DNA of 64,000 nucleotides, taken from positions 1 through 64,000 of IMG/VR virus record IMGVR_UViG_3300049215_000223. One strand, given 5' to 3'. This document shows, piece by piece, positions 36,370-52,951 of this stretch. The notes under the pieces are model-generated. The model was not told the origin of the DNA. It was given only the letters and a program-made list of their open reading frames with translations, and ran no database searches. Source of the stretch: a virus. Position 1 is the stretch's first letter, and each line of letters starts with the position of its first letter. The position numbers and the translations under genes were made by a program.

Positions 36370-36692
36370 GAGAATACTGCCAGCTTGAGGAGTTTCAATG
36401 CCAATGCTTCAACTTGTTTAAGATTAATTTCGGCTGGCATTTTGTTAACATTCATTATATGACTTCCAGAATTGGAGTATCTTCCGTCATGAAGAGGTCT
36501 GAAATTATCTTTCAATCCACTTAAACTAGTTGTATTCTTTGCTAGATCGATATCAATTTCATATTATTTATCTTTAAGAATCATATAAAAAGTAATACGA
36601 TTAGGTCTAAACCAAACGCGACATGGGGTGCAGTATTGCGTATCGTGGGTACCAGAGGTAATTTTAGAACAGAATTTGCAAAAAGATATCAT
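36366..36692 (-). pseudogene. Cys-ribbon array gene with in-frame TAA
   Basis: MISFCKFCSKI...CTPCRVWFR runs 42 codons to TAA (36566-36564), then the same frame continues 65 codons to KLLKLAVFS and TGA, overlapping the next ATG. Every family landmark is intact apart from the stop. A recent nonsense mutation, readthrough, or a miscalled base. Confidence 0.75.
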
Positions 36693-36958
36693 GAGAATAA
36701 CACGTAGGTTTTAACTTTTTCAATCATATTTTCGGGCGTGAAGTTTGGCAAGGAATCCATCTGGAACAGCAGCTCTCCATTTGTATATATTTCGCACTTT
36801 TGATCTTCAAAGTTAAGATAAACTTCATATTTGCCTGTAGCTAAAACAACGCCATTGAGTTTGTCTTTTTTACCAAACTGATGGACGACCACGACAGAAT
36901 GGTAATCGCAACAATTACTTACTGGAATGGGAGACTGGCAGTAGTAACATTTTTTCAT
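36689..36958 (-). CDS. Cys-ribbon array protein, short (89 aa)
   Basis: CYYCQSPIPVSNCC ribbon with unusual second pair, end NFTPENMIEKVKTYVLFS. Shortest member with a full signature. Confidence 0.65.
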   Translation of the reverse strand: MKKCYYCQSPIPVSNCCDYHSVVVVHQFGKKDKLNGVVLATGKYEVYLNFEDQKCEIYTNGELLFQMDSLPNFTPENMIEKVKTYVLFS

Positions 36959-37269
36959 GAAAAGGTAACAATAGTTTTAAGTTTGGCGTACAATTTTTCT
37001 GGGGAGTCTAGTTTGAGTTCTTCATTAAGAACTATTGGCATATCTCCAAAATTTTTGGTTTCTTTATTATAATAAAATATATAAGACTTACCATTGTACA
37101 AGTGTAATCTAAAGGGAGGGATGCTACATACTTGTAATTGATTGGTAGTATGTAGAGAATAATGAGATTGCTTGATGAAGGTGTCAGCATCAAAACTAAT
37201 ATGAGTAGGACAGATAAAATCCTCAAGGGCGGCAGGAGTTAGTTCACGTTGGCATAATGGACATTTCAT
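36955..37269 (-). CDS. Cys-ribbon array protein (104 aa)
   Basis: CPLCQREL...FICPTHI: the second half has C and H rather than CxxC. End DSPEKLYAKLKTIVTFS. Confidence 0.65.
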   Translation of the reverse strand: MKCPLCQRELTPAALEDFICPTHISFDADTFIKQSHYSLHTTNQLQVCSIPPFRLHLYNGKSYIFYYNKETKNFGDMPIVLNEELKLDSPEKLYAKLKTIVTFS

Positions 37270-37637
37270 AGGAAGATTAGATAGGTTTTGAGTTTGTGCT
37301 TAGCATTCTCGGGAGTGATTGGAAGGATTTCGTTAGCAATCATTAGAACGTCTACCAGTTTAGCACGGACACGTTGACGTTCAGGAGTATATGGAACTTT
37401 ATAAATCAATAGAGTTTGAGTCGTTTCGAAATCAAATTGAAAATGATAAGTTCCATCCTTAGTAGGATCATTTGTATGAAGGGTGAATTCCACATAAACC
37501 AATTTACCATTATTGTATCTTATAAGCGTGGTACAATGTTTAGTACAAGTTTCACAATACCAAGACTCTGGCTGACGATCCTTAAACATAGGTAAAGGAA
37601 CTGTATGATCAGGGGTTTGGCAGAATGGACAATTCAT
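37266..37637 (-). CDS. Cys-ribbon array protein (123 aa)
   Basis: CPFCQTPD...SWYCETCTKHC, beta-rich middle, end PITPENAKHKLKTYLIFL. ATGA coupling on both sides. Confidence 0.7.
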   Translation of the reverse strand: MNCPFCQTPDHTVPLPMFKDRQPESWYCETCTKHCTTLIRYNNGKLVYVEFTLHTNDPTKDGTYHFQFDFETTQTLLIYKVPYTPERQRVRAKLVDVLMIANEILPITPENAKHKLKTYLIFL

Positions 37638-37935
37638 GAAAAAGTTAGTAGAGTTGGAAGTTTCTTTTCAAAGTTTTGGGGTGATACTCTAGCTCTAAAA
37701 TGATATTATTAATTTTGACATCAGTACTATTGGTAGTTAGTCTAAAGAAAGGCTGATCAAAATAGAAGAAAGAAGCAGTATAGTTCTTATAGTAAAATGA
37801 ATAAGAAGCTATATCATTCATCACTATAGAGAACCAATAGTTAACATTATACTTGGAACAGTGATATCGTATGTATGCTCCATCATTGGTACTGAACATT
37901 TCAGTAATCATTCTTACACAGAAATAGCACTTCAT
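37634..37935 (-). pseudogene. Cys-ribbon array gene with frameshift near its end
   Basis: CYFCVRMI...YHCSKYN opens normally. At the C4 run (37678-37681, GGGG on plus) the frame leaves the family signature. The neighbouring frame reads PQNFEKKLPTLLTFS and overlaps the next ATG. One missing C restores it. Decay or homopolymer miscall. Confidence 0.7.
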
Positions 37936-38270
37936 GCGAATGTTAACAAGGTTTGGAGTTTTTCTTTTACATTTTGCGGATTGACTCCCTGGATTAGTTC
38001 TGAGATTTCCAAGATAGGAGGCTTATACATGTCGAGCCCATTGAAGAGTCCAGTCTCACTATGTAATGCTCTGACTCTAGTTTTATTTTGGGTAAACAGT
38101 AGTTCTATAATATACATGGTGTTGGGTTTTCTGACAGAGAACGACATAGCCTCTAGTGATTCGGGACCTTCTTTAAACTCGACGCAGCATACGGCACATC
38201 TCCACCAATCACCAGGTTGGATGGTTATTTTAATACAGCGCCCGGAGCAGAAATAGCAATAGTAGTTCAT
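37932..38270 (-). CDS. Cys-ribbon array protein (112 aa)
   Basis: CYFCSGRC...WWRCAVCC, end GVNPQNVKEKLQTLLTFA. Typical length and signature. Confidence 0.7.
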   Translation of the reverse strand: MNYYCYFCSGRCIKITIQPGDWWRCAVCCVEFKEGPESLEAMSFSVRKPNTMYIIELLFTQNKTRVRALHSETGLFNGLDMYKPPILEISELIQGVNPQNVKEKLQTLLTFA

Positions 38271-38629
38271 GAAAATGTAATTATTGTTTTGATTCTTTTA
38301 GGAGAGATTAATGTGGAAGTAAGATTATCAAACTGTTGCAGTGGCATATCATAAATCTTGCTATACCCCGAGGCGTCTCGTCTTTCCAACCAAACAGCTG
38401 TATAGTCCATTTCGAAAAAAGAAGTTAACGAAATTATTCTATCATCATAGAAATATGCAACTTCAGCATAAGACATTCCTGTTTTAGGACGAAACTCAAA
38501 CCAAGACTCAGGAATTGAATGTTCTCTAAGTTTACTAACTATTTCTTTATTACAGTAGTATATTTGTTTCTGAGCATCTGAATGATGAAGTTGTAATATA
38601 CTTTGACAGATGGGGCACTTATAACTCAT
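38267..38629 (-). CDS. Cys-ribbon array protein (120 aa)
   Basis: CPICQSIL...YYCNKEI: second Cys pair reduced to one Cys. End STLISPKRIKTIITFS. Confidence 0.65.
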   Translation of the reverse strand: MSYKCPICQSILQLHHSDAQKQIYYCNKEIVSKLREHSIPESWFEFRPKTGMSYAEVAYFYDDRIISLTSFFEMDYTAVWLERRDASGYSKIYDMPLQQFDNLTSTLISPKRIKTIITFS

Positions 38630-38943
38630 AGGAATGTTAGGATAGTTGTGATTTTAGATTCAATATTTTTAGGATTAATATTGGGGGCTGGATTAAAATG
38701 ATGGATGTTCTGACCCTTTTCATCTATCAAATCAGCTTTATCAGCTTCGGGGAAAATATGAAGTATATATTTTTTACCTCTAATAAGAGTCCACAGTTCA
38801 ATAGTATATGCTGTAATTTGTCTATTAACACGAAATGTAGATCGGCAAGACGTACAACCCCAATATATATTATTACCTGACATTTTACCTATTTGGCATC
38901 GGCGCTTACAAAAATAACAAATATAAAATAATGATTCGCTCAT
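38626..38943 (-). CDS. Cys-ribbon array protein (105 aa)
   Basis: CYFCKRRC...WGCTSCRSTF, end NINPKNIESKITTILTFL. Confidence 0.7.
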   Translation of the reverse strand: MSESLFYICYFCKRRCQIGKMSGNNIYWGCTSCRSTFRVNRQITAYTIELWTLIRGKKYILHIFPEADKADLIDEKGQNIHHFNPAPNINPKNIESKITTILTFL

Positions 38944-39251
38944 AGGAAAGTTAAGTACAGTTTAATTTTTTCTTCTACATTGCTTGGAGTAATATTGGGT
39001 GGAATAAATGGAAGACGAACAACCGAATCATGAATATATCCGGGACCACATATTTCAGAGCATTTATACTCTAAGTCTATAACAAAAGAATATCCAGGCT
39101 GATTGCCTTTCTTACCAAGTTTACAATCCATGAATACCCATTTAATAACATCCTGTTCAAGTTGGTATTCTACATTGCAATCGAAGCATTTACGACGAAT
39201 AGCGGAGCCGTAAAACTGTGGGAGCATGTTATTGCAATATAAGCAGTTCAT
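38940..39251 (-). CDS. Cys-ribbon array protein (103 aa)
   Basis: CLYCNNML...RKCFDCNVEY, end NITPSNVEEKIKLYLTFL; a textbook copy of the family ending. Confidence 0.7.
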   Translation of the reverse strand: MNCLYCNNMLPQFYGSAIRRKCFDCNVEYQLEQDVIKWVFMDCKLGKKGNQPGYSFVIDLEYKCSEICGPGYIHDSVVRLPFIPPNITPSNVEEKIKLYLTFL

Positions 39252-39607
39252 AGGAAATAAGCTAGTGTTTGTAGCTTCCTATCTAAATCTTCTAAATTAA
39301 AAATATCTATTTTCTTAGTTGGCAGTTTAATGAGTGTGGAAGCAACGCCGCCATAGCGCTTTAATATTTGTCTGGAATAGATATGAGCTTCGTTAGGGAA
39401 CGAGGAATTTTGGAAGTAAGTGTATACATTAAAATTTTTAGTAGAGAACCGCAAATAACTTAATTCTGGCTCATCAAAAGCATCCTTGAAATACTGCGAG
39501 TATTCAGTTGCACAATACCCACTACAATATTCATAATACAATCTGCCCTGCAAAGGTGGACGATGGATAGCTCCATTACAATAGGGGCAATGAATAAATG
39601 GTTTCAT
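39248..39607 (-). CDS. Cys-ribbon array protein (119 aa)
   Basis: CPYCNGAI...YEYCSGYC, end DIFNLEDLDRKLQTLAYFL; the ITPxN core is replaced by NLED. Confidence 0.65.
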   Translation of the reverse strand: MKPFIHCPYCNGAIHRPPLQGRLYYEYCSGYCATEYSQYFKDAFDEPELSYLRFSTKNFNVYTYFQNSSFPNEAHIYSRQILKRYGGVASTLIKLPTKKIDIFNLEDLDRKLQTLAYFL

Positions 39608-39972
39608 GAGAACGTTAGATAGACAGGTAATTTAGACTCTACATTTTCTGGTGTAATATCGGGGTGAAAGTCTAAGGTAAAAATAGTTTCGCTGGGTTTC
39701 CTATTATCGAATGGAATCTTAGCGATGGAAAATTTGGGGTGAGTTGGATCTAACTTGCCGTGGTAGAAGTTGACACGGTAATTTGTTTCTTTGAAGCGGC
39801 AGATCAAAGATGTCCATGTATAGCTAGTAACATCGCCAAGAGCCATCGCAATAAATTGTACCCTTACTGAACCATGATAATCGCACTGATAGGCAGGAAA
39901 ATTCATTCTTCCCCCAGGTCTATCGTTGGTTGCAGTTTTACGACACTCAGTTTGGCAATATGTACATTTCAT
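39604..39972 (-). CDS. Cys-ribbon array protein (122 aa)
   Basis: CTYCQTEC...YQCDYHG (C and H in the second half), end DITPENVESKLPVYLTFS. Its start lies 1 nt after the stop of 39974, a rare spaced junction. Confidence 0.7.
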   Translation of the reverse strand: MKCTYCQTECRKTATNDRPGGRMNFPAYQCDYHGSVRVQFIAMALGDVTSYTWTSLICRFKETNYRVNFYHGKLDPTHPKFSIAKIPFDNRKPSETIFTLDFHPDITPENVESKLPVYLTFS

Positions 39973-39973
39973 G

Positions 39974-40303
39974 TTAGCTAAATATTAGATAGGTTTTAAT
40001 TTTGTTTTCTATATTTTGAGGAGTGATATGATCTGGTATAAAATTTAGTGAGAAGATTAAATCTCCAAACCACATAGACATAAAATCATCTCTTATCCAT
40101 TCTAGGATTTCAAACTTATTACTTACAATATGTAATCTGGCATCGTAATCTTTATTATTAATAGTTCTTCTAAATAGAATTAAATCATAAACATTATCTT
40201 TCTTTCGAAAGTAACAATTACAAGATTGGCACGTCCAATGTTCTTCCTGAGAAATATTCCACTCATACTGTGTACAAGATGTATTACAATAACTACAGAT
40301 CAT
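39974..40303 (-). CDS. Cys-ribbon array protein (109 aa)
   Basis: CSYCNTSC...HWTCQSCNCYF, end HITPQNIENKIKTYLIFS. Confidence 0.7.
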   Translation of the reverse strand: MICSYCNTSCTQYEWNISQEEHWTCQSCNCYFRKKDNVYDLILFRRTINNKDYDARLHIVSNKFEILEWIRDDFMSMWFGDLIFSLNFIPDHITPQNIENKIKTYLIFS

Positions 40304-40632
40304 GAGAAGTTGATATACGTTCTTATTTTATCGGCAACATTTTGTGGAGTAACACCAATTAAAATATATGGGAATGACACTACAATAATAAGGGTTCCCT
40401 CGGGATCTTCTGGGTAAGCAACTATTCTAGATTCACCACTATCGTACATTAGTTGTAGACTATAAAGATGATTCTTTACCCGTGCATCTAAACAAACAAC
40501 ATTCACGTCGCCATTATAGTGAATTTGATAATGAGCCATACAATCTTCACAATACCACCAATCATCAACTAAATCAGCCTCATCTCTGTCCATGCAGTTT
40601 TTATTGCAAAAACTGCAAATTGGTGTAGTCAT
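40300..40632 (-). CDS. Cys-ribbon array protein (110 aa)
   Basis: CSFCNKNC...WWYCEDCMAHY, end GVTPQNVADKIRTYINFS. Confidence 0.7.
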   Translation of the reverse strand: MTTPICSFCNKNCMDRDEADLVDDWWYCEDCMAHYQIHYNGDVNVVCLDARVKNHLYSLQLMYDSGESRIVAYPEDPEGTLIIVVSFPYILIGVTPQNVADKIRTYINFS

Positions 40633-41069
40633 GTGAACACCGTCAGATTCATAAGACGGTTGAATAGTTTCTGCGCTTCTGTGTGCATATCATTGTCAGT
40701 TGAGATTGGTATAAATTTGACGCTAATAATAGGGGATACGAGATTTTTAGCCGTCCAGCTTGAAGGGATCATGTACCCATCCATCGTACTGAACGAAGGG
40801 CTAGCTTTCCCTGTAAGTTGATGTATTCTAGTACATTGTTTGCCTTCCATAGCAAACCAATTATTTTTAACTTTGAAAGGCAGATGGTAATTCCAGCACT
40901 GCCACCTTTCACTCTCACGGACCAAGACTCCCATATGAGGAGTGTACGCTACTTTACGGGCTGGGCAATCAATGTTCCAGCAATGCAAGTCCATGCGTTT
41001 AGTTGTTTCATTAAACTTATTTATCTCACTGCGATTATACATTACTGAGAAACAAGATGGACAGTTCAT
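40629..41069 (-). CDS. Cys-ribbon array protein, longer (146 aa)
   Basis: CPSCFSVM...LHCWNIDC, a larger middle, end AQKLFNRLMNLTVFT. Longest of the short subfamily, with a divergent tail. Confidence 0.65.
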   Translation of the reverse strand: MNCPSCFSVMYNRSEINKFNETTKRMDLHCWNIDCPARKVAYTPHMGVLVRESERWQCWNYHLPFKVKNNWFAMEGKQCTRIHQLTGKASPSFSTMDGYMIPSSWTAKNLVSPIISVKFIPISTDNDMHTEAQKLFNRLMNLTVFT

Positions 41070-41434
41070 AGGAAGACCTTTAGATTCAAAATTCTTCTAA
41101 CCAAATTCTCATAGAAAGAAATGTCATCGGCAACTGGGTAAAATTGATTATCAAGTGTTATGCATTGATTTGCGCTCTGCCCTGGTTGCCATATTTCTGA
41201 ATAAGACCAACCATCATTATAACTAGTGAAATCATAGCTTTTGCCATCTACTACAATATTAATTTCATAGTCATTAATACGCTGGCTAGGATATTCTGCA
41301 AATCCCCAGAATCTAGTATTCTCTCCATCATCTAGACAGTAAGGGTTTTGACATTCCACTTCATAATACCTAGGACCTCCCTTAGGCTCTCGTTCTTTGA
41401 ATGTAAGTGGAGTTAGGCAGACGGGGCAGTTCAT
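41066..41434 (-). CDS. Cys-ribbon array protein (122 aa)
   Basis: CPVCLTPL...VECQNPYC, end ISFYENLVRRILNLKVFL. Ending resembles that of the 40629 gene, so these two may be recent sisters. Confidence 0.65.
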   Translation of the reverse strand: MNCPVCLTPLTFKEREPKGGPRYYEVECQNPYCLDDGENTRFWGFAEYPSQRINDYEINIVVDGKSYDFTSYNDGWSYSEIWQPGQSANQCITLDNQFYPVADDISFYENLVRRILNLKVFL

Positions 41435-41775
41435 AGGAAAGTTAGTATAGTTGATAGTTTATGTACGACGTTGGATGGAGTGACGTTGGGAATGGTAGGC
41501 AACTCAAGCACGACTCTTTGAGTAAATTGTGCATCATCTGCTTGTAAAATTTCAGTGATACGACATTCCTGACCAGGATATAACAATTGAACTGAATATC
41601 TATTGTTACTTATTGATACTGCCAAACAAATCATACTTAGTTCTTGAGTCTTAACATCTACAGTATGACGAACCATAACTGGACATTTATGACATTTCCA
41701 AACCTCAAGAAATTGGGACAGATTGTCTTCTAGTTGTGCCAGCTCGCATGGTTGTTGGCAGAAGTGACAGTTCAC
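41431..41775 (-). CDS. Cys-ribbon array protein (114 aa)
   Basis: CHFCQQPC...WKCHKCPVMV, end NVTPSNVVHKLSTILTFL. The start may be GTG/ATG at the overlap with the 41772 stop. Confidence 0.7.
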   Translation of the reverse strand: MNCHFCQQPCELAQLEDNLSQFLEVWKCHKCPVMVRHTVDVKTQELSMICLAVSISNNRYSVQLLYPGQECRITEILQADDAQFTQRVVLELPTIPNVTPSNVVHKLSTILTFL

Positions 41776-42173
41776 GAGAACACCAGTAGCATTCTTATTT
41801 TAGCCTCAACATTCTGTGGCGTCATCTCAGGAAAGATATCTCCCTTGTCAGCATCAAACTGCCTAATGCACTGTAAGTCCTTATTGACTTTCTCACCAGG
41901 AATACCGGGATCTCCGATATACCAGAGCGAAGCAATCTTCCTATCAGGAGTGCAGCTCCATCGATACGTCTCTCCATTAATTTTGGTATAGAGATTGATT
42001 CCGCTTATATTTCCGCTTTGATAATGTAGATATTCAGATTGACAATGATGACAAAAATAAACGCTCATACCATATCTACTTACTTCTTCTAATGGAGCAT
42101 ATGGCGCGGGGCGTCCGCAGAACTTACATGGTTTAGGTAAATGATGCTTTTGAAACTGATTATCATCACTCAT
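41772..42173 (-). CDS. Cys-ribbon array protein (133 aa)
   Basis: A polar N-terminal extension of about 15 residues, then CKFCGRPA...YFCHHCQSEY, end EMTPQNVEAKIRMLLVFS. Confidence 0.7.
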   Translation of the reverse strand: MSDDNQFQKHHLPKPCKFCGRPAPYAPLEEVSRYGMSVYFCHHCQSEYLHYQSGNISGINLYTKINGETYRWSCTPDRKIASLWYIGDPGIPGEKVNKDLQCIRQFDADKGDIFPEMTPQNVEAKIRMLLVFS

Positions 42174-42538
42174 AGGAATATCATTAATTTTTGAAGTCTG
42201 TCCAATAGATTTTCAGAAGTATCAGCTTTAATCCGAGAGGTTTGTATCACAAACTTCCAGGCATTCATCATGGTCTTGTTTGCATATTGGTCATGAATTT
42301 TATAAACTCTAGATTTTGATTCATTTCCAAAATTATCTATTGCATATGGAAGGACATACATATGCTGGATAGCCGCGCGATTATCCGACTCCACTTCATA
42401 GTGATTGATTTCGTGAACGTTGGTAGCCCCTTGCAACTCAACTTTGGTAGGACAAAAGTATACGTTGACTTTTGCCACCTGACGGTACTGTAATACTTTA
42501 CCGCACAGTGGACAGGTCCTAATTTCAAAATTAATCAT
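42170..42538 (-). CDS. Cys-ribbon array protein (122 aa)
   Basis: CPLCGKVL...YFCPTKV, end SENLLDRLQKLMIFL. I prefer ATG 42538 over 42556 because the promoter at 42562-42590 would start transcription near 42555. Confidence 0.6.
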   Translation of the reverse strand: MINFEIRTCPLCGKVLQYRQVAKVNVYFCPTKVELQGATNVHEINHYEVESDNRAAIQHMYVLPYAIDNFGNESKSRVYKIHDQYANKTMMNAWKFVIQTSRIKADTSENLLDRLQKLMIFL

Positions 42539-42561
42539 AGCTGGGGAGGGCTCCATCCTAT

Positions 42562-42590
42562 ATTGTATGTCTTTTGAGGCGCAGAGTCAA
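42562..42590 (-). promoter_or_regulatory. Sigma-70-like promoter inside the array
   Basis: TTGACT (42590-42585), 17-nt spacer, TACAAT (42567-42562), in the largest gap between short array genes (after 42594). Confidence 0.6.
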
Positions 42591-42593
42591 GGA

Positions 42594-42965
42594 TCACGAG
42601 AACACTAAGTACATCTTTATGCGGTTAACAACCTCTTGTGTATCGTGCCAAGGCAAATAGAGTGCCTTCTCCAACGTTATAAGATGTTTTTCAAATTGAT
42701 TGGGTCCTTCTAACCCATCTCTCCAGTCTGTAGTGCAAATTCTTGTTTTCTTGGCATCTTCAGTATCCCACATGGTTATGTCATATGGTCCAACTTCTAG
42801 AGAGAATATCTCTGGATTATTATTATATGGATTAACCCAAACAGAAGCATGACTAATGTTAACCATAATTTCCAAATCTTCTATCCAAGTTTGTTTTTTA
42901 GGGCATTGGAGAATTTCTTTATTGAAAGTAACTTCCATTAAATTATTACAAATAGGACAATTCAT
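42594..42965 (-). CDS. Cys-ribbon array protein (123 aa)
   Basis: CPICNNLM...LQCPKKQ, end HDTQEVVNRIKMYLVFS. Its stop is followed by the internal promoter rather than an overlapping gene. Confidence 0.7.
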   Translation of the reverse strand: MNCPICNNLMEVTFNKEILQCPKKQTWIEDLEIMVNISHASVWVNPYNNNPEIFSLEVGPYDITMWDTEDAKKTRICTTDWRDGLEGPNQFEKHLITLEKALYLPWHDTQEVVNRIKMYLVFS

Positions 42966-43291
42966 GAGAACAACATTAGGGTATCTAGTTTATCTTCCAT
43001 CAAATCAAGATTCTTAAAATCAGTTTTAAGAACTCTGTCAATTTTAACTGCATCGTATAACAAACAATAATCTAATTTATAAACAATAGTGTGTAAATCA
43101 TCATAGTTTATTCTAACGTAATACTTACCCAACATAAATTCTTGTCTAGATATTGTGGTTGGATAGTTATTATAGATTGCTATAAAGCGAGCCATATCAC
43201 TCACAGCACAGCCTGATGCCGTACACCAATACGCAGTGTCATTTAGGGCTTGATGAGACATCAGCTTTGCAGCGCAGAAGGGACAATTCAT
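42962..43291 (-). CDS. Cys-ribbon array protein (109 aa)
   Basis: Start 43291 overlaps the TGA of the GIY-YIG gene (ATGA). CPFCAAKL...YWCTASGC, end LDLMEDKLDTLMLFS. Confidence 0.7.
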   Translation of the reverse strand: MNCPFCAAKLMSHQALNDTAYWCTASGCAVSDMARFIAIYNNYPTTISRQEFMLGKYYVRINYDDLHTIVYKLDYCLLYDAVKIDRVLKTDFKNLDLMEDKLDTLMLFS

Positions 43292-43914
43292 TTCCAAATT
43301 TTGCCAGCGACAATAAGACCAATTGTTCTGTGAGATACTCCGTATTTCTCTCCCAATAATCTGTGAGATTGACCACCATTTTTATAATCTAATCTTATGA
43401 AGTTAACAATTTCATAAGTAAGCTTTGCATTTGGGTTATTTTCACCCTGAACTTTTAGAGCAACTGATTTAGATATCTTTTTGGAAGTTTCGATAGATAT
43501 TGTTTTCCCAAAATTTGCATTATTAGCACCAGAATGTGCGAGAGACATTTTTAATTTAGTATCTTTAGATGCGCATTTGCCACGCTTTATCACAGACATT
43601 TTCTTTTTACTTTCTTCTGAATGTTTGCCGTGTGAACCGCCTTCTTTGATATTATAACCAAATTTATTATTTCTGGTTTCTAAAAGATTTATCCAAAAAA
43701 TCTCAGCAATGTCTACCTCCTCCTGAGTTGTAAAATTTTCGATGGGCACAAACTGAAATTTATCTATTCCATATTTTTGCATTGCTAGATAAATGGGATA
43801 TTTGTATCTAGTTGAATTATACTTGTGCCTGCTCCATCTACCAAATGGATTATCTGTCTGACCGACATATAATTTACCGTTTATAATATTTTTGATTATA
43901 TAAATAAAGTGCAT
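43288..43914 (-). CDS. GIY-YIG homing endonuclease
   Basis: A 208-aa nuclease. FIYIIKNIINGKLYVGQTD is the GIY-YIG core, RWSRH supplies the catalytic Arg, and a Glu (VPIENF) follows. A NUMOD3-like DNA-binding stretch (GGSHGKHSEESKKKMS) and a C-terminal helix-turn-helix (LLGEKYGVSHRTIGLI) follow. It is inserted between two array genes with TAATG and ATGA overlaps, so coupling along the array is kept. Confidence 0.88.
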   Translation of the reverse strand: MHFIYIIKNIINGKLYVGQTDNPFGRWSRHKYNSTRYKYPIYLAMQKYGIDKFQFVPIENFTTQEEVDIAEIFWINLLETRNNKFGYNIKEGGSHGKHSEESKKKMSVIKRGKCASKDTKLKMSLAHSGANNANFGKTISIETSKKISKSVALKVQGENNPNAKLTYEIVNFIRLDYKNGGQSHRLLGEKYGVSHRTIGLIVAGKIWK

Positions 43915-44279
43915 TAGCTAAAAATTATATAAAGAGATACTACTTCTTTTAATTTGGTTAAATCAGGGAAATCTGGAATTAGCATTTTTGGTATGTCAAT
44001 ATACGATGACTTGCCTTCTTTCATACAATTAATTCTACATTTCTGTAGAACAAAATCTATCTCTAAAAATCTTGAATATTTTGGATTCAAAGATAGCTTC
44101 ATAAAATCTACTTTACCAGTTTCTTCATTAACTTTTAGTTGTAGAGTATGATTCATTCCCCTATTACAGGTACGCTCTTTACAATAGGTTAAAGTTGCTG
44201 AATTTGGTGCTACGGGCTCTAATTTTCTTAAATTACGAAGCTTATTGCCACAGATTGGGCAGGTCAGAGTATCGTCCAT
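43914..44279 (-). CDS. Cys-ribbon array protein (121 aa)
   Basis: CPICGNKL...TYCKERTC, end PDLTKLKEVVSLYIIFS. First gene left of the plus-strand gene at 44352, so it probably has its own start of transcription in 44280-44351. Confidence 0.7.
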   Translation of the reverse strand: MDDTLTCPICGNKLRNLRKLEPVAPNSATLTYCKERTCNRGMNHTLQLKVNEETGKVDFMKLSLNPKYSRFLEIDFVLQKCRINCMKEGKSSYIDIPKMLIPDFPDLTKLKEVVSLYIIFS

Positions 44280-44351
44280 GTATCAGTATATAACCCACGA
44301 AATCGAGTAATAATGTCGCATCCTTACAATAAAAGAAAAGATAAGGAAAAT

Positions 44352-44747
44352 ATGAAATTATTTGACAGAGTTGAATGGTACTACAAACTGGCACAAGAAA
44401 CCACTTCACCACATCAAATACTTAAATCTGTTATTCAGAATATTATTAAAACCGTCGAGTCACGCCCACATGCTTCTGCAGAAGAGAAGGGCGACCTACT
44501 TAAAGTACTTAAAGAAGCTACCAGTAATGGAGAACCTGATGGTAATGTTGATGCTACCTGGTCTGCAAAATTAGCCAAACTAATGGATCAAGTTAATTCA
44601 TTAAGAGGGGATGAAGATCAAAAGGATCAAGATAAAGTGGGACACGATGTGTTTCATACTTTAGAATACGCCTGGAAACATATAGAGAGTTGTGGGCACA
44701 AAGCACACGTGCAAAAGCCAGTAGGAACCAGTAAGTTAGGAAAATAA
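44352..44747 (+). CDS. 131-aa protein with LA-type N-terminus
   Basis: AAGGA 5 nt upstream of ATG 44352 supports this start over 44313. MKLFDRVEWYYKLAQ resembles the N-termini of the proteins at 50156 and 53656. Charged helical body, His/Lys-rich end. Convergent 3' overlap with 44736. Confidence 0.55.
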   Translation: MKLFDRVEWYYKLAQETTSPHQILKSVIQNIIKTVESRPHASAEEKGDLLKVLKEATSNGEPDGNVDATWSAKLAKLMDQVNSLRGDEDQKDQDKVGHDVFHTLEYAWKHIESCGHKAHVQKPVGTSKLGK

Positions 44748-45125
44748 CGTATAGGTATCTAATTTCTTTTTAAGCAATTCAAGATCATAGAATGGAAGTT
44801 CCAGCAGACTATCTATCTCACATACTGGTTTAGATAATGACATTGGTTCCATATCTGGAGAGTTCTCAAAAATTCCAATCACGTTCTTAAAAATCATTGT
44901 ATAATTACACTTACTACTTATCAAGCTTCTGCGATAGAACAAATTAATATAGTACTCATCAATCCTAAAAGAGTCAGCCAACATATTATTAGAAGCATCA
45001 TACAATCTTCTGTGTAGGGTATTATATTTTGGAAACTGACAGTTTCTACATTCCCTTAATGTGAGCAAATCAGAATTGGTATGACTAGCCCAAACTAATG
45101 GTTGATGGCAAAAAGAGCAGTTCAT
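44736..45125 (-). CDS. Cys-ribbon array protein (129 aa)
   Basis: CSFCHQPL...RECRNCQ, end YDLELLKKKLDTYTLFS. Confidence 0.7.
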   Translation of the reverse strand: MNCSFCHQPLVWASHTNSDLLTLRECRNCQFPKYNTLHRRLYDASNNMLADSFRIDEYYINLFYRRSLISSKCNYTMIFKNVIGIFENSPDMEPMSLSKPVCEIDSLLELPFYDLELLKKKLDTYTLFS

Positions 45126-45454
45126 GAAAATGTTATGTAAGTTTTTAACTTTTTAATCAAATGTTTATAATCAGAGAAATCAGGTTCAAAATATGGCAAG
45201 TGCTGACCTTCTGTCTTACTAGTATTTCTAATCTCTAGATCTTTAATAAGCGGAGACCATATTACTATTACTCCATGTGTTAATGGAATTGATACCAATG
45301 ATAATTCATCATATGAGTCCATCAGAGAAATATAGTATATTTTGTGATCTAATTTATTGGTACATTCTTTCTGTAAGCAATTACTTTTTTCGGAACCTAA
45401 AAATGAATTGCACAATGGTTCTTTACAGATTGGACAGTTGATTGGCATTTTCAT
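45122..45454 (-). CDS. Cys-ribbon array protein (110 aa)
   Basis: CPICKEPLC...CLQKEC, end SDYKHLIKKLKTYITFS. Possible second start at 45448. Divergent from the plus gene at 45518 across a 63-bp gap containing a TATACAT/ATGTATA inverted repeat. Confidence 0.7.
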   Translation of the reverse strand: MKMPINCPICKEPLCNSFLGSEKSNCLQKECTNKLDHKIYYISLMDSYDELSLVSIPLTHGVIVIWSPLIKDLEIRNTSKTEGQHLPYFEPDFSDYKHLIKKLKTYITFS

Positions 45455-45517: not shown

Positions 45518-45943
45518 ATGAGTGTAGTTAGAAGTAAATTAGAACATAGAACGATACTAGATTTTAGCAAGGGCAAGTTATCCAAGAATTTAGTTAAGAA
45601 CTCGCTGCGACAAGTGGATGTACTAGATTGTGTGTCAGCTCCTGGAGTTCATAAACTGATTGTCAACAGAATAAAAGTTGGCATGTATATGATTCAATTA
45701 TGGTTTTCAGATAGAGACACTTCTAGAAATAGAAGAAAATTAAAAGAGTATGGGAAGTTCAATATTCATATTTATGAAGAATGCGCTTCTGGAGATTACA
45801 GATTGATTAGATTAAACCGTGATGTTAGATTTAATAACCAGTACTGGGCATCACTTAATAAAAAGTCAGGCTTAATGGCTAACTCTCTCACTGATGCAAT
45901 TGTTCATTGTAATAGACTCAGTCGTTTAAAAGCATTCTTATGA
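45518..45943 (+). CDS. AFL-tail protein (141 aa)
   Basis: A beta-rich middle (KVGMYMIQLWFSDRD), then SGDYRLIRLNRDVRFNNQYW and an end NRLSRLKAFL. The 50199 protein has the same order (VGEFIIRIEEY, MTYRKNFHQD, LKRMTAFL), so the two are related. Function unknown. Overlaps the converging array gene by 6 nt. Confidence 0.55.
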   Translation: MSVVRSKLEHRTILDFSKGKLSKNLVKNSLRQVDVLDCVSAPGVHKLIVNRIKVGMYMIQLWFSDRDTSRNRRKLKEYGKFNIHIYEECASGDYRLIRLNRDVRFNNQYWASLNKKSGLMANSLTDAIVHCNRLSRLKAFL

Positions 45944-46591
45944 AAACATATTGTATATTTTTATCTTATTGATTAGCTGCTCTTTATTGTGAGTATTGGT
46001 TAGATTAACGGCAGGAACACTCAAGTCCATGAGGTCCTCTAGTTTCTGTGTAAAATCAGCGCGGAATATTCTAGATGTGCCAGTGGTAAAGTCCGTGTTA
46101 ATATGGAAGAAAGAGTTATCTAAGCTGAACCCAGCAAACTCACGAAACATCCAACAATTGTAAGTACCATCATCATTAATATTCAGTGCAAATGAATAGA
46201 AGCAAATCTTCTTCTTCAAATTATCAATAGAAGAAAAAACAGATGGCGTATGACTCGTTGCTGCCATAGTCATATTGCTGCTACTGAGACTAGGAGCTGG
46301 AGTACTTGGTTTTATAAGTCGAGTGTCTATATCGTAATTGCAAACGGGACAAGTTTTGCACACAATAAATGGTTTGGCATAAATAGACCAAAATCGGTCA
46401 CCAAGTTCATAGGTGCCATCAAACTTGAAGTTAGCATATACTCTACCCTTAGGTTTGTCTTTGAGGCGGATGCGTAGTTCGTCTGGACTAACGGACAAGC
46501 TCATTCCCACTAACTCTGCACTACCAACAATCATTGGTCGTTGACAGATCAGACACTTATTACGATAGTTTAATAGCTCTTGTAAATTCAT
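45938..46591 (-). CDS. Long Cys-ribbon array protein (217 aa)
   Basis: LQELLNYRNKCLICQRPM...CKTCPVCNYD, then a second beta domain, end KEQLINKIKIYNMFS. Twice the length of the short members, with an LxxLLxYRxxC lead shared by the other long ones. Confidence 0.65.
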   Translation of the reverse strand: MNLQELLNYRNKCLICQRPMIVGSAELVGMSLSVSPDELRIRLKDKPKGRVYANFKFDGTYELGDRFWSIYAKPFIVCKTCPVCNYDIDTRLIKPSTPAPSLSSSNMTMAATSHTPSVFSSIDNLKKKICFYSFALNINDDGTYNCWMFREFAGFSLDNSFFHINTDFTTGTSRIFRADFTQKLEDLMDLSVPAVNLTNTHNKEQLINKIKIYNMFS

Positions 46592-47202
46592 GAAAATATC
46601 AAGTAAGTTTTCATCTTGGTGAGAAAATGTTCCTTGTTCCTAAACCTATATCGTGGTAGCAACGGAAGTACGATTGAACCAATAGAATCAGCTCCCCAAT
46701 TATTTTCTAGACTATAATCTTTTTTACCATATGTCAAGGCGCTTTTATTTTCTTTAAAACTAGATGCCATCACATACCAATTGATATTATCACTACAAGA
46801 TAATACTTCATTCTCAATAGGGAATGAGTAAATAAATTCTTTAGTTAAATCAAATCGTAAACACTCACTTTTAATATAAGTAAGACAGCTGCAAAAAGAT
46901 TCTATCCAAATATCATTCTCTGTTAAAAATTTTAATAATCTGGGCTCATCATTTGTTTTAAACTTATTGGTCTTATGAAATATTTTAAGTTTGAGAGTCT
47001 TTTTGTAAGTAATTCTTAAATTCATTTCTACATACTCTGGTGTTACCAGAGGAGTTATCTCTACATTTTTTTCTTCATCAGATTTAGATCCTCTTCCTGT
47101 AGTAATTGATTTTCTAGTTACTATTTTAATAGTAACCGCTTCGCCACAACTGAAACAGGGATTATTATAAGTAATAAAATCTTTAACAGTAAATTTTTTC
47201 AT
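46588..47202 (-). CDS. Long Cys-ribbon array protein (204 aa)
   Basis: VKDFITYNNPCFSCGEA...SFCSCLTYI, end KEHFLTKMKTYLIFS. TAATG overlap with prfB upstream: the release-factor gene sits inside the array transcript. Confidence 0.65.
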   Translation of the reverse strand: MKKFTVKDFITYNNPCFSCGEAVTIKIVTRKSITTGRGSKSDEEKNVEITPLVTPEYVEMNLRITYKKTLKLKIFHKTNKFKTNDEPRLLKFLTENDIWIESFCSCLTYIKSECLRFDLTKEFIYSFPIENEVLSCSDNINWYVMASSFKENKSALTYGKKDYSLENNWGADSIGSIVLPLLPRYRFRNKEHFLTKMKTYLIFS

Positions 47203-48296
47203 TATTCTAATTTACTCTTTGTATGAAGAAACGAAACAATGAACCCATGTAAGTTCCCATTAAGCACATCATCGGCATCCCTAATCTCATGTTCAGTACG
47301 ATGATCTTTAACAAGTTGATAAGGAGAAAGCGTGTATGTACGCATTTGATTACCAAAAGCATTTTCTGATTGTGATAAGAAGTATTTTTCTTTTTCGGAC
47401 ATTTGCTTCTTCAGTTCTATGTCATACAACTTAGCTTTAAGCATTTTTAGAGCCGTTCGTTTGTTAGCGTGAAAGTCTCTTTCCGTTCTAACGAAGATAT
47501 GTATACCACTAGGAAAATGCTTTAATCTAACTGCCGAACTTACCTTGTTCTGGTTTTGACCTCCAGGTCCACCAGAAGTTTGAGCTGTTATTTCCATATC
47601 TTTATCATTTATCTTTATGTCAATTGTGTCTTCAATGTCAGGCACAACAGCCACAGCGGCAAAAGAGGTATGTCGAGCGTCGCCAGAGTTAAAAGGAGAG
47701 TTACGGATCAGTCTATGAACTCCAGCTTCTCCCTTAAAGAAACCATATGCATAAGGACCATCTATCCTTAGAGATACAGAATCGGTACAGATGCCGCCAT
47801 GCTCTTCAGATGGCTTCATGTCTAATATCTCTAGTTTGAATTTATAACTATCTGCATAGCGAGAATACATACGGAGCAGCATAGTAACCCAATTGGCTGC
47901 CTCCAAGCCTCCTGCGCCTGCGCTGATGGTCAAAATGGCAGGGTTGTTATCTGTAGGATCATTCATCATTTCTTGAAACTCAATTCTGGACAGAATCTCT
48001 TCTACCAAACTGATTTCAGGAATCATAGCCTCTGTTTCTTTAGGCATGGTATTCAGGCACTCTTGAAAGAAAGATACCTGCTCTTTGAGGTATGCCAACT
48101 GCTCTAACAAATCGGATAGCTTCTGCCTTTCCTTCATAAGATCGGCAGCTTCTTTAGGATTGTCCCAAAAGTTAGGGTTGTTGACGAGACTATCTATTTG
48201 TTCCAATCGCAATGTGTGCTGATTGACTGGAACCATTTTTTCCAGGGATTTTATTTTGCCCTGGCAGGATTCAATTAATTGTATTATAGTTTTCAT
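47202..48296 (-). CDS. prfB: Peptide chain release factor 2
   Basis: A 364-aa, full-length class-1 release factor that terminates translation at UGA and UAA. N-terminal helical domain; the SPF codon-recognition tripeptide is in LIRNSPFNSGDARHTSF; the catalytic GGQ is in SGGPGGQNQNK. The C-terminal YQLVKDHRT stretch is typical. SPF, rather than PxT, marks RF2. Unlike most bacterial prfB there is no internal UGA frameshift. It is coupled by overlaps to array genes on both sides, whose stop codons are mostly UGA. Confidence 0.93.
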   Translation of the reverse strand: MKTIIQLIESCQGKIKSLEKMVPVNQHTLRLEQIDSLVNNPNFWDNPKEAADLMKERQKLSDLLEQLAYLKEQVSFFQECLNTMPKETEAMIPEISLVEEILSRIEFQEMMNDPTDNNPAILTISAGAGGLEAANWVTMLLRMYSRYADSYKFKLEILDMKPSEEHGGICTDSVSLRIDGPYAYGFFKGEAGVHRLIRNSPFNSGDARHTSFAAVAVVPDIEDTIDIKINDKDMEITAQTSGGPGGQNQNKVSSAVRLKHFPSGIHIFVRTERDFHANKRTALKMLKAKLYDIELKKQMSEKEKYFLSQSENAFGNQMRTYTLSPYQLVKDHRTEHEIRDADDVLNGNLHGFIVSFLHTKSKLE

Positions 48297-48916
48297 GAGA
48301 AGGTAACCAAAGTTTTTATGCGTGTAATTATCTTATCTCTACCCATACCCTCTAGATTCATAATCTTTGTTCTAAGGGGTTCGGTGTTCGCATTATCGCG
48401 GAGGTAAATGTTGGTAGAGTTAAAGATCCAGTCATTCTGAACCCAGAGATTGTCTACCACAAAACTCTCCATATATAGTCGAACACTTCTAATTTTCCAA
48501 ACTGAAGGTTCGTTCGGTACTGAGTCACATCTAAAGTTATCGCTAGAGATACAGTAATTTAAACCACATGATCTACTGGGGCAGTATAGCTCAATGTGTG
48601 GTCCCAAATTTTCGAATGTCTCTTGTACCAAAAAGCAATCTAGTATTTCAGTACTGCGATCTTCTTTATTTAAAAGATCGAACTTAACGAGATTAGTTCT
48701 AATGTCTATTTCTACATTAGCCTCTAACTCAAAGCCCGGCGTCGTATGCTTCATGTGAAATTGGAATTTACCATCTTTTTCCTTGGACTTTATAATAGGA
48801 ACATCATTGGAAGAACGGCTGAAATTGATGAATATTATTTCCAATTTGCCACCACAGAAGACGCAACTTTCTTTTATCTTAAAGAAGTCTTCTATGCTGT
48901 CAAAATAACATTTCAT
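48293..48916 (-). CDS. Long Cys-ribbon array protein (207 aa)
   Basis: IEDFFKIKESCVFCGGKL with a later LYCPSRSCGLNYC pair, end GRDKIITRIKTLVTFS. ATGA-coupled to prfB. Confidence 0.65.
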   Translation of the reverse strand: MKCYFDSIEDFFKIKESCVFCGGKLEIIFINFSRSSNDVPIIKSKEKDGKFQFHMKHTTPGFELEANVEIDIRTNLVKFDLLNKEDRSTEILDCFLVQETFENLGPHIELYCPSRSCGLNYCISSDNFRCDSVPNEPSVWKIRSVRLYMESFVVDNLWVQNDWIFNSTNIYLRDNANTEPLRTKIMNLEGMGRDKIITRIKTLVTFS

Positions 48917-49518
48917 ACAAAAACTAATAGCCTCTTTATCCTACTCAATGCTTCTTGTGGATTTTTGAGATCCATAGGAATCAATGGAATATATTCGTCA
49001 TTAATGGATCCGTCAACTAAGTGTGCAGTGTAATGAGTTTGTTTGGTTGAATAAATACTAGTGATTTCATACAAGATTCCGTTTTCTTCTAAACTAACTC
49101 TTTCTGAGTTTAATAAAACTTTAGTTAATTTCTTATCAGTTAAATCAATACATATTTGCCAAGTACATGAAAATAAGAAACACTGTTCACATTCTGCTCT
49201 TAGACCCTGATATAAAGTCCCAGAGCGGGGAAGAGGGTTAGGATTAGATGCTATAATTCCCTTAACCCTCCCGCCTGTATACATATGCCGTGTAACTTCC
49301 CTACCGTAAACCTCTATTTTAATTTCGTTGGTATGTGGGTCGATAGTTAAAATATCCTCATTGTTTCCGCCAGACAAGTAAAAAGATATTTTTTGTTTGC
49401 CTCCCTGCCACACAAAATCTTCTACCATAAACTCATTGTTAAAAGTAAGCGTGGAGTCACAGAATGGGCAGTATTTGTGATATTCTAGCGCTTGCTTGAT
49501 GTCAGTGAAAGATATCAT
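48913..49518 (-). CDS. Long Cys-ribbon array protein (201 aa)
   Basis: ITDIKQAL-type lead, CPFCDSTL...ECEQCFLFSC, end PQEALSRIKRLLVFV. ATGA overlap with the kinase-like gene upstream. Confidence 0.65.
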   Translation of the reverse strand: MISFTDIKQALEYHKYCPFCDSTLTFNNEFMVEDFVWQGGKQKISFYLSGGNNEDILTIDPHTNEIKIEVYGREVTRHMYTGGRVKGIIASNPNPLPRSGTLYQGLRAECEQCFLFSCTWQICIDLTDKKLTKVLLNSERVSLEENGILYEITSIYSTKQTHYTAHLVDGSINDEYIPLIPMDLKNPQEALSRIKRLLVFV

Positions 49519-50156
49519 GAGGATGACGAGTCGTAATATTCATCGAACACTTCTTCGGTAAGTCCTGCGTCAATCAAAATAGGACGACCATCTTTGGTTC
49601 CCCAGGAAGATATCCTAGCAATGTCTCCTGCCAGTAAATCAAATTTTTCGCCTAGACGTTTCATTTCTTTATAAACCTCTGAGTCGGCAACCTTATCAAA
49701 TCCTTTAGGCTTTTCTGAGGTGGACTTCAAACCATATCTAAGAGCCTCACCAAAATCATCAAAATCTAGCCCAGTCATCTCTTTGAAATCTTTGGTAGTT
49801 ATCTTGTCTAAATAGTGTGTTTCTAGCCAGGAGTGATTCTTTGCGCAACTGATGATTTCATTGATGAACTTGGACTTCATCTTAGGGTTGCATTCCACTT
49901 CGTTTTGAGCAATTCCTTTGTCATTCTTAGCCATTTTAACAACTGTCTTATCAGGTGTCAAATACACAATTCTGGAGGAGCCAGAGGATAAGTGCTCTAA
50001 GTTTTTCTCAGCATATTCCTTGCGGGCGGTATACGTTTCCAGCCCTTCCAAGTTCTTTAGGATTGTCTTTAGATCCTTAGAATCGGCAGGCAGCTCTTCG
50101 CTTTCGGCTAGCGATTGGAAGAAATGGGCTAATTTGAGCAACTTATTGATATCCAT
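49515..50156 (-). CDS. Protein kinase-like protein
   Basis: Start 50156. HLSSGSSRIVYLTPDKTVVKMA looks like kinase strands 1-3 with the Lys, AQNEVE like the helix-C Glu, and GRPILIDAGLTEEV like the DxG metal loop. The HRD loop is not clear, so catalysis is uncertain. The N-terminus INKLLKLAHFFQSLA is shared in style with 44352 and 53656. About 213 aa. Confidence 0.55.
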   Translation of the reverse strand: MDINKLLKLAHFFQSLAESEELPADSKDLKTILKNLEGLETYTARKEYAEKNLEHLSSGSSRIVYLTPDKTVVKMAKNDKGIAQNEVECNPKMKSKFINEIISCAKNHSWLETHYLDKITTKDFKEMTGLDFDDFGEALRYGLKSTSEKPKGFDKVADSEVYKEMKRLGEKFDLLAGDIARISSWGTKDGRPILIDAGLTEEVFDEYYDSSSS

Positions 50157-50198
50157 ACGATAATGCAAACTTAGTAATATTACGTTATATTTTAGAAT

Positions 50199-50741: not shown

Positions 50742-51379
50742 GAGAACAATATTAATTTTTCTAATCTTTTCAAAGTCTCATCATGAGATGTAAATGGAAT
50801 TAAACCTGTATGCAAATGATTAGTTAATTCATCAGTTATATATTTATTTTCTCTCAAAGATTTAACTTTACCATAATTAATAAAAGTTTCCTTGGATTTA
50901 TAGTATGTTACCATGCTGTATACTTTATAGCCACCTAACATTGCTGGCTTAATTAGCCAACATTGTTCAGTGTGAACTGATAATTCTCCAATAGAGCAAT
51001 TTTTATAATCAAAATTCAAAGGGTTAGTTGCATAATTATATCTTTCACAACTATTACAGTGTTTGTAAATCTTATAACCAGCCAAATTTTCATCTAAACT
51101 TTTGAATCGATCCATTAGAAATCGTGGAGATACATCCTCATATCTAATTTCATCGTGAGTAAAAAATTCTATTCTAAGAGAGTTGTCATCGAATCCAAAA
51201 GAATAACCAACCTTGTAGTGCTTCTGCTTTTTGGTCAAACCATCTAACGGAAACAGAATCAACATACGATTATCTTCAAACCTAATTTTTTGTCTTCTGT
51301 TAGAGTGAAATGCAATGTTCAATGGGTTTTGACAGATAGGGCACTCTTTTTTATAATCAAGGAATTCGCGTAGTTTCAT
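50738..51379 (-). CDS. Long Cys-ribbon array protein (213 aa)
   Basis: LREFLDYKKECPICQNPL...KHCNSCERYNYAT, end DETLKRLEKLILFS. ATGA overlap with the lipoprotein gene upstream. Confidence 0.7.
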   Translation of the reverse strand: MKLREFLDYKKECPICQNPLNIAFHSNRRQKIRFEDNRMLILFPLDGLTKKQKHYKVGYSFGFDDNSLRIEFFTHDEIRYEDVSPRFLMDRFKSLDENLAGYKIYKHCNSCERYNYATNPLNFDYKNCSIGELSVHTEQCWLIKPAMLGGYKVYSMVTYYKSKETFINYGKVKSLRENKYITDELTNHLHTGLIPFTSHDETLKRLEKLILFS

Positions 51380-52206
51380 GGGATAGTCTTACAGCATCTA
51401 AAACCGGTATCATAATAGGAAAATGTGGGTCCATGACCATCTGTTCGGGGGCTGCAACGATTTCTAACGCCATGTGGGTGTCCACCCTTAAATACAGATA
51501 CATAAGGTGTGCCGCCTGATGAAACTGCCCACTCATCGGCATTCCCCGTCATATCATATACTCCATATGGTGAGATACAGTTTGGCATTGAACCGGAAGG
51601 AACAGTTTTATCTAGTTGCTCAAAGGTATGTGTTGCTGGGTCTTGCCAAGGTAAATCTATACGGCAAGCATTGGTATCACGAACATACCCATAAGGGTAT
51701 GGAAGATCACTTGGACCTCGACAAGCTTGCGTCCATTCTGTATCTACACAGAGACGTTTACCTTCTGATTCACAAGTCGCTTTAGCTTGATTCCAAGTAG
51801 TTTGCAATTGAGGTTTACTTCCTAATTTATTTGGATATTCGTATTTATCAATACAAAAATTCATGTGTCTAGTCTGACCTTTACAGACCGTTGGCTTCTG
51901 GAACTCCCCGCACCTCATCGGAGAACTCCACTCTTCACAAGTACCAGCATCGTCTTTCTTTACACAAAGAGGAGCATCTAGCCATTTGAGGCAAATCTCT
52001 TCTAGATTTATGCAATATTCTCCGGTTATTTGAACCATATCAGATGGGCAGGTAGATACTGGTTGCACCACAACATCATCTAATGTCAGATCTATAGGGC
52101 TAGAATCTTTTGTTATTGTCTGTGCTCCAATCCGAGATGAAAATTTCTCCGTAGCACAACTCGTTAAAACCAACAAAACTAAAATACAAATACTACTGCG
52201 TCTCAT
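51376..52206 (-). CDS. FGE/SUMF1-like lipoprotein
   Basis: Start 52206 after GAGG. Signal peptide with lipobox VLTSC, then a 240-aa formylglycine-generating-enzyme-type domain: CIDKYEYPN near the start, GKRLCVDTEWTQACRG, PYGVYDMTGNADEW, KGGHPHGVRNRC and GFRCC at the end. These are the family landmarks; whether it oxidises a Cys or only keeps the fold is unknown. Lipid-anchored outside the cytoplasm. Shares the array transcript. Confidence 0.75.
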   Translation of the reverse strand: MRRSSICILVLLVLTSCATEKFSSRIGAQTITKDSSPIDLTLDDVVVQPVSTCPSDMVQITGEYCINLEEICLKWLDAPLCVKKDDAGTCEEWSSPMRCGEFQKPTVCKGQTRHMNFCIDKYEYPNKLGSKPQLQTTWNQAKATCESEGKRLCVDTEWTQACRGPSDLPYPYGYVRDTNACRIDLPWQDPATHTFEQLDKTVPSGSMPNCISPYGVYDMTGNADEWAVSSGGTPYVSVFKGGHPHGVRNRCSPRTDGHGPTFSYYDTGFRCCKTIP

Positions 52207-52252
52207 GCAACCTCGCACCCATATAATATAGCCACAGTGGGGCGAAGTGCAA

Positions 52253-52951
52253 CTAAGAAAACAATAACAGCGTCTTGAGTTTATTCAGTAAAAATTCATG
52301 CTCCAGAGGATACCTTAAAAATTTCTCCGAATTCATTTGTATAACTTGCTGCGTCCCCAAGATGTAGGGTGGCATTGGCATATTGTAAGTAATGCTAGTA
52401 GTCTCTGTTGCAAAATCAGTTTTGAAATAATACTTCATTCTCATACCATTGAGAATGAAGTATTCCGATATAAGAGTAATTGGTTTTAGCTGCATCATGT
52501 CCATGTCAAAAATAATAGGTCCTGTAGATAATTGGTATCTGTACTGACAGCTGGAATGATGGGAGCACTGCAATCTTAGATTGATATTGAATCCAGTTTG
52601 TAACTGTTGAGTAAAGTGTCTCTTAACAAAATCATCCGGTGATGTACTGTATTCCGTGACTGTAGAGACTCCACCCGTTTCATAATATTCAGACTTAATA
52701 CTACAGGACGGATCTTTTAAGTTAGCAAGTATAAGAAAATATACCTGTCCTGATGGAGAAAGACGAGATTCCAAACAGCATGGGAAGGCTACCTGATCTC
52801 CCCCTTTAACTAACTTATAAGCACTCATTGGCTTGATAACAGTATAATCATCATCCATATGAATACCATGATTGAATACGATGGATAAAGGATTACCGCA
52901 TAGACAATTAGTCCTGAAGTTGAAGAGCTGCTCAAATGTCGCAAGTTGCAT
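52253..52951 (-). CDS. Long Cys-ribbon array protein, first of the array (232 aa)
   Basis: FEQLFNFRTNCLCGNPL (one Cys of the first pair shifted), later LQCSHHSSCQY, end HEFLLNKLKTLLLFS. No array gene lies upstream; a terminator at 53016-53060 separates it from the next gene. Confidence 0.65.
   Translation of the reverse strand: MQLATFEQLFNFRTNCLCGNPLSIVFNHGIHMDDDYTVIKPMSAYKLVKGGDQVAFPCCLESRLSPSGQVYFLILANLKDPSCSIKSEYYETGGVSTVTEYSTSPDDFVKRHFTQQLQTGFNINLRLQCSHHSSCQYRYQLSTGPIIFDMDMMQLKPITLISEYFILNGMRMKYYFKTDFATETTSITYNMPMPPYILGTQQVIQMNSEKFLRYPLEHEFLLNKLKTLLLFS

Follow-up and report, generated by a model that had tools for sequence, protein, structure and literature searches.

A phage-encoded release factor 2 in a clade of very large phages that use the standard genetic code

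Introduction

Release factors have been described in two settings among very large phages. In huge phages, RF1, RF2, RRF, tmRNA, and SmpB are reported in the inventory-style passages of one study (PMC7162821), and the Lak megaphages, in which TAG is recoded, carry RF2 (PMC6784885). In the literature that we searched, phage RF2 is explained mainly by such UAG recoding. Bacterial RF2 is the product of prfB, in which an autoregulatory frameshift is common but not universal, being absent in Actinomycetota; the loss of the frameshift site accompanies RF2-specific stop usage, and unregulated or excess RF2 is harmful in both E. coli and B. subtilis (PMC12421855). Here, we describe the RF2 gene found in a viral DNA stretch of 64,000 nucleotides (the window), which forms positions 1 to 64,000 of a 178,722-bp viral record (G000; the G and L numbers are our labels for the genomes and loci of this phage and its relatives).

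Results

Identity and motifs of the RF2 gene

The RF2 gene lies at 47202..48296 on the minus strand and encodes 364 amino acid residues from an ATG start to a TAA stop, in a single uninterrupted reading frame with no programmed frameshift. In a profile search, the protein scored 376.1 bits against NCBIfam TIGR00020 (prfB; cut-off 370), with residues 9-357 covering nearly the whole model, and just 207-214 bits against the RF1 models, whose cut-offs are 400-423. It also matches the solved RF2 chains of E. coli, B. subtilis, and Thermus, with E values down to 6e-72. The stop-codon recognition motif SPF (47691..47699, minus strand, residues 200-202) aligns to the SPF of E. coli, and the catalytic motif GGQ (47556..47564, minus strand, residues 245-247) is flanked by a loop that has diverged in the window copy; both motifs are unchanged in 16 of 16 phage copies of RF2. 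The AlphaFold model of the window protein, built on 13 phage sequences and of moderate confidence (pLDDT 73) with an unreliable GGQ loop, has RF2 chains and RF2-ribosome complexes as its best Foldseek hits (E 5e-26). The predicted product is a full-length class-I release factor RF2 with intact recognition and catalytic motifs, and its gene is the sole one with an RF-1 domain in the 178,722-bp record. The initial annotation had called a complete RF2 with SPF and GGQ at exactly this position, leaving the strand unstated, and the reading frame, the prfB score, and the motif positions bear it out.

The phage and its genome

The same annotation had taken the gene to be phage-encoded, which agrees with the tail genes in the record and with the same flanking genes in 12 other phage loci. 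The record encodes a baseplate wedge protein (phrog_6) and a sheath-like protein with a partial match to the sheaths of Bacillus phage G and an Eggerthella phage. The contig G014 (193,526 bp) is 100% identical to G000 over ~104 kb and runs beyond its right end, so the genome of the window phage amounts to at least ~268 kb. G014 was considered as an RF2-less twin of the window phage and rejected as such, being an overlapping partial assembly that does not include the window stretch. The large structural genes read normally with the standard code. We conclude that the window phage is a large contractile-tailed phage of at least ~268 kb with the standard code. Across G000 and G014, there are two tRNAs in all, one for Thr at window 5-75, right where G000 starts, and one for Arg in G014.

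Under no genetic code do clear long genes appear in the 4-34 kb part of the window, and a recoding of TAG, TGA, or TAA was rejected, with the genes outside this part reading normally. This poorly coding 30-kb stretch (window 4000-34500) has a GC content of 43-53%, compared with 35-40% in the gene array around RF2, and only 12 of its 46 ORFs of at least 80 aa have homologues in relatives, compared with 41 of 52 at 34.5-64 kb; no Rfam match at the gathering score was found in it. Elsewhere in the record, an FGE-sulfatase-like gene (PF03781) is located in the array region (window 51376-52218, minus strand), and long Gly-Pro-rich tandem repeats of 9/45 bases (L007 9106-14271; G000:C1 about 173106-178271) apparently belong to a collagen-like fibre gene.

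Gene array around RF2

RF2 is overlapped on both sides by genes of the array, as the initial annotation had stated. The upstream gene (48293..48916, minus strand, 207 aa), for which no match to any known family was found, has homologues in 9 of 12 relatives, and its stop and the start of RF2 form an ATGA overlap at 48293..48296 on the minus strand. This overlap is kept in 6 of 13 loci; in the other seven, gaps of 3-152 nt precede RF2, and in L013 the apparent overlap is that of a TTG further upstream, the gap before the conserved ATG of RF2 being 59 nt. On the other side, the downstream gene (46588..47202, minus strand, 204 aa), with homologues in all 12 relatives, starts within the RF2 stop (TAATG, one shared base at 47202). 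Two further upstream genes on the same strand, at 48913..49518 (201 aa) and 49515..50168 (217 aa; phrog_4301, of unknown function), have homologues in 8 and 12 of the 12 relatives, respectively, and the second downstream gene (45938..46591, minus strand, 217 aa) has them in four. The remaining array downstream (36689..45454, minus strand) consists of overlapping genes of ~110-130 aa, mainly with NTGA overlaps. RF2 itself ends in TAA in 10 of the 13 loci, including the window, and in TGA in three.

Phage RF2 clade and the missing frameshift site

Scans of viral contigs yielded phage RF2s with 51-66% identity along the entire protein, and the bacterial RF2s reached at most 42% among the best 80 of 582 matches, from a scan that sought two phage-conserved peptides and thus sampled bacteria unevenly. 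The tree places fifteen phage RF2s in a single clade (SH-aLRT 100) on a stem of 0.97 changes per column. The dN/dS ratios of the two closest pairs are ~0.08 (L008-L009) and ~0.11 (L010-L013); the synonymous sites of the window copy are saturated or nearly so. As judged from these comparisons, RF2 and its flanking genes are kept in a monophyletic phage clade, with the RF2 family under purifying selection.

A CTTTGA frameshift site was found in none of 13 phage RF2 genes within the first 150 nt, whereas 69 of 80 bacterial loci have CTnTGAC or CTTTGA close to where the gene starts; the comparison is rough, since the bacteria were scanned over more sequence and with a pattern that was slightly less strict. 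It therefore seems that the phage gene encodes an RF2 that lacks the host's brake.

Mosaic structure of the GGQ segment

Two main forms exist of residues 236-284 of the phage RF2s, the 49 residues around the GGQ motif. One, form A, resembles the bacterial sequence (MRASGAGGQNVNKVESAVRL). In contrast, form B, which typically reads AQT(S/A)GGPGGQN(Q/V)NKV and is found in the window copy (47445..47591, minus strand) and others, is without the Arg that 76 of 79 bacterial sequences have. The segment is mosaic relative to the rest of the protein: L014 and L020 share 91% identity in the core and 63% in the GGQ segment, and the segment identities reach 88% for L020-L008 and 92% for L014-L017. When the segment is left out of the tree, the window copy falls with L008 and L009, both form-A phages (99/95), but has a GGQ segment closest to that of L016, and the Arg/Thr state needs four changes. 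By this evidence, forms A and B would have changed places at least four times, for which recombination is the simplest account; convergence is a possible alternative, the segment being just 49 residues long. An origin of form B from PrfH or ArfB was rejected, with form B scoring below form A on both models. The activity of the window copy may be altered, given its diverged segment. In a separate difference, RHTSF is changed to RQTSF in six phage RF2s (L014, L016, L020, L021, L022, and L208); the His is near-invariant and adjoins the codon-recognition loop.

Stop codons

Stops were counted with a simple ORF caller on ORFs of at least 80 aa, leaving out the odd 4-34 kb stretch. The record has 75 TAA, 64 TGA, and 5 TAG stops (n = 144), and ~96% of genes end in UAA or UGA, the two codons recognized by RF2. 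The overlapping stops comprise 36 TGA and 12 TAA, and the stops with neither an overlap nor a close follower comprise 49 TAA, 21 TGA, and 4 TAG (n = 74). Within the array, TGA occurs at 23 of 30 junctions, in keeping with the earlier description of the array stops as mostly UGA. It is found in 21 of 21 four-base overlaps because the NTGA geometry forces it; the gapped junctions have 5 TAA and 1 TGA. Outside overlaps, no preference for UGA was found (TGA 21/74, 28%, vs. a 32% background, p = 0.54), and TAG, which is not read by RF2, is depleted (4/74 vs. a 29% background, p = 9e-7; 5/144 overall). The initial annotation had seen in the UGA stops the reason for RF2 and had suggested a genome-wide stop count as a check. 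This idea fares poorly: the geometry forces TGA, the ATGA upstream of RF2 exists in only 6 of 13 loci, and the bias revealed by the count is against UAG, the lack of a genome-wide UGA preference counting against a UGA-coupled mechanism. The UGA stops around RF2 are a by-product of overlapping genes and not a target chosen for RF2.

Among genes of at least 200 aa, TAG ends 44 of 1111 in the RF2-carrying clade (with G014) and 23 of 99 in the relatives in which RF2 was not found, namely, G022 and short contigs (Fisher p = 2e-10), a contrast that represents one single clade-level event and involves a thinly sampled second group whose short contigs may be incomplete. In samples of named phages analyzed with the same caller (at least 100 aa), TAG ranges from 2.6% (Atu_ph07) to 25% (SPO1), with 2.6-6.5% in T4, GAP32, and Atu_ph07, which were compared by their stop usage. 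Since some ordinary phages also avoid UAG, the avoidance need not come from RF2, and it may reflect the host instead. UAG closes three genes of the window phage, the RNA-ligase gene at 540-1511, a DUF7275 gene at 3016-3933, and the gene at 52253-52951; each of these stops falls at, or close to, the position where the homologues end, and UAG is therefore still a stop in this phage. The RNA ligase (PF09414, minus strand) possibly acts in tRNA repair.

Translation genes of the relatives

Each of the five relatives that measure at least 430 kb (G003, G005, G006, G007, and G010) encodes UAG-suppressor tRNAs with a CTA anticodon, and no such tRNA was found in the ~268 kb covered of the window phage, whose genome is incomplete. 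tmRNA scores above the Rfam cut-off in the same five genomes and in G009, and does not do so in G023. In G003, G006, G007, and G010, a tmRNA and a UAG suppressor are at most ~5 kb apart, with tRNA-Thr genes equally near. An RRF gene was seen in only one relative, the RF2 carrier G005 (L333; G005:C1 114522-114998), and searches of the relatives for phage PrmC and SmpB returned none. G022, in which RF2 was not found, also lacks tmRNA, and the 140 kb of it that were sampled contain no tRNA. In G010, two UAG-suppressor tRNAs that differ in sequence lie next to each other (L219 12881-13035; G010:C1 212881-213035), and the structural genes of this phage have no in-frame UAG. G007 has a possible UAA-decoding tRNA with a TTA anticodon beside two UAG suppressors (L307 10073-10149), which may be a tRNA-like false call.

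Large-scale in-frame UAG in the relatives was rejected. Of 18 candidates, two were examined singly, and the others, with one or two matches each, were set aside. One of the two is real: in an HNH-like gene of G010 (L225 10943-11509), an in-frame UAG replaces a Trp codon conserved in the homologues, with homology on both sides, and this is the only convincing case seen; the other resembles an antisense shadow ORF. No in-frame stops were found in two structural genes of G000 and 11 relatives. On this sequence evidence, we take UAG not to be reassigned in the phages of the RF2 clade, so that RF2 would sit outside any large-scale recoding.

Discussion

We consider it probable (roughly 0.6) that the phage RF2 is part of the phages' own translation toolkit in a clade of very large standard-code phages, securing termination at UAA and UGA. 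During infection, the supply of phage RF2 would lie beyond the reach of host autoregulation, and phage messages would terminate at UAA or UGA, many ATGA junctions included, without reliance on host RF2. Acting through the UGA frameshift of host prfB, the phage protein would also lower the expression of that gene and shift the RF2:RF1 balance. RF2 stands beside UAG-suppressor tRNAs and tmRNA in the largest relatives, and there the wider module may impair termination at UAG by RF1 in host genes and leave phage genes unharmed. RF2 may additionally take part in ribosome rescue and in suppressing RF1/UAG termination, and competition with host RF1, the other effect named by the initial annotation, is weakly consistent with the UAG avoidance and the suppressor tRNAs of the relatives. 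Excess RF2 is harmful to cells (PMC12421855); hence, a benefit to the phage is not automatic.

According to the initial annotation, extra RF2 could accelerate termination-reinitiation along the array, specifically where it is coupled to UGA, an idea to which the TGA at 23 of 30 junctions and the overlaps on both sides of RF2 lend themselves. We regard this as very unlikely: TGA is forced by geometry in 21 of 21 cases, the non-overlap stops show no UGA preference, the overlap is missing in 7 of the 13 loci of RF2 carriers, and RRF depletion left coupling unaffected in E. coli (PMC7538156). It is improbable, if less so, that RF2 serves a Lak-like UAG recoding, in which some genes would read UAG as an amino acid and RF2-type stops would be the only ones left, with RF2 either kept from such a state or paired with a suppressor in the unsequenced part of the genome. 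The suppressor tRNAs in every one of the five relatives that reach 430 kb, the depletion of UAG as a stop, the G010 HNH-like gene, and the precedent of Lak RF2 (PMC6784885) point that way, but the two structural genes examined in 12 relatives have no in-frame stop, reading UAG as sense brings little or no gain in coding cover, UAG closes three window-phage genes at or close to the point where their homologues end, and the ~268 kb seen of the incomplete window phage genome yielded no suppressor.

The termination factor might instead act mainly in ribosome rescue of the ArfA/BrfA type, on mRNAs that are broken in the late stage of infection. RF2 is the factor that ArfA and BrfA specifically recruit, and they depend on its GGQ but not on its SPF (PMC8012679); the importance of rescue in this clade is shown by the tmRNA of six large relatives. 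Against this, SPF, which rescue could spare, is invariant in 16 of 16 phage copies, and phage SmpB was searched for with no hit, which leaves rescue as the main function improbable. A stray or decaying bacterial gene, acquired by chance or misassembly, would recall the many RF2-bearing "phage" records of the public collection that look like bacterial fragments. This is extremely unlikely in view of the monophyly of the phage RF2s, the same flanking genes in 12 of 12 loci, the purifying selection, and the absence of any bacterial relative above 42% identity among the best 80 of 582. Finally, suppressor, tmRNA, feedback-free RF2, and host-driven GGQ swaps may be read jointly as a takeover of UAG with the phage genes unrecoded. 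The UAG-suppressor tRNA would cause read-through of host messages that end in UAG, tmRNA would clear the ribosomes stalled by it, the feedback-free phage RF2 would sustain UAA/UGA termination of phage genes, and the GGQ segment would be swapped between phages because it is targeted by something in the host, for example a defence factor or an enzyme that modifies it; we think it unlikely that the whole chain holds.

If RF2 secures UAA/UGA termination as part of the phages' own toolkit, a standard-code clade that keeps it over a long divergence and without host feedback separates RF2 for recoding from RF2 for the control of termination. The clade, whose largest members have UAG suppressors and tmRNA, thereby offers a protein set for testing termination control, and the two exchangeable GGQ segments make the catalytic loop of a release factor the subject of a natural experiment.

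Comparison with known systems

The huge phages of more than 200 kb carry the same kind of phage-encoded termination factor as the window phage, as far as the inventory passages describe it, and those passages do not include a conserved RF2 locus, a missing frameshift, a UAG bias, or a GGQ mosaic (PMC7162821). With RF1 and RF2 listed there and RF2 in Lak (PMC6784885), the kind is already known. In the literature searched, which lay outside most subscription journals, we came across no report of a standard-code setting for RF2, of the lack of the frameshift, of the relatives' suppressors and tmRNA, or of the GGQ mosaic. The Lak phages resemble the window clade in having RF2 in a very large phage and a UAG-suppressor tRNA, the latter here in the relatives of the window phage. 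However, Lak phages recode TAG and the window phage does not, and Lak RF2 is ~35% identical to the window RF2 and falls outside the phage clade in the tree, though on a long branch. In Lak-A2, RF2 has SPY for SPF and RMTSF for RHTSF, with Met replacing His. PrfH and ArfB share the GGQ domain with RF2, but the window RF2 scores far under their cut-offs (97 of 166.65 bits for the PrfH model and 31 of 100 bits for ArfB). It is the bacterial RF2 (prfB, TIGR00020) that the window RF2 matches in domain layout, SPF, GGQ, length, and fold; compared with the bacterial copies kept (best 80 of 582), it is at most 42% identical, is without the programmed frameshift, has GGLEAANW where bacteria have GGTE, and carries the form-B GGQ segment without the near-invariant Arg.
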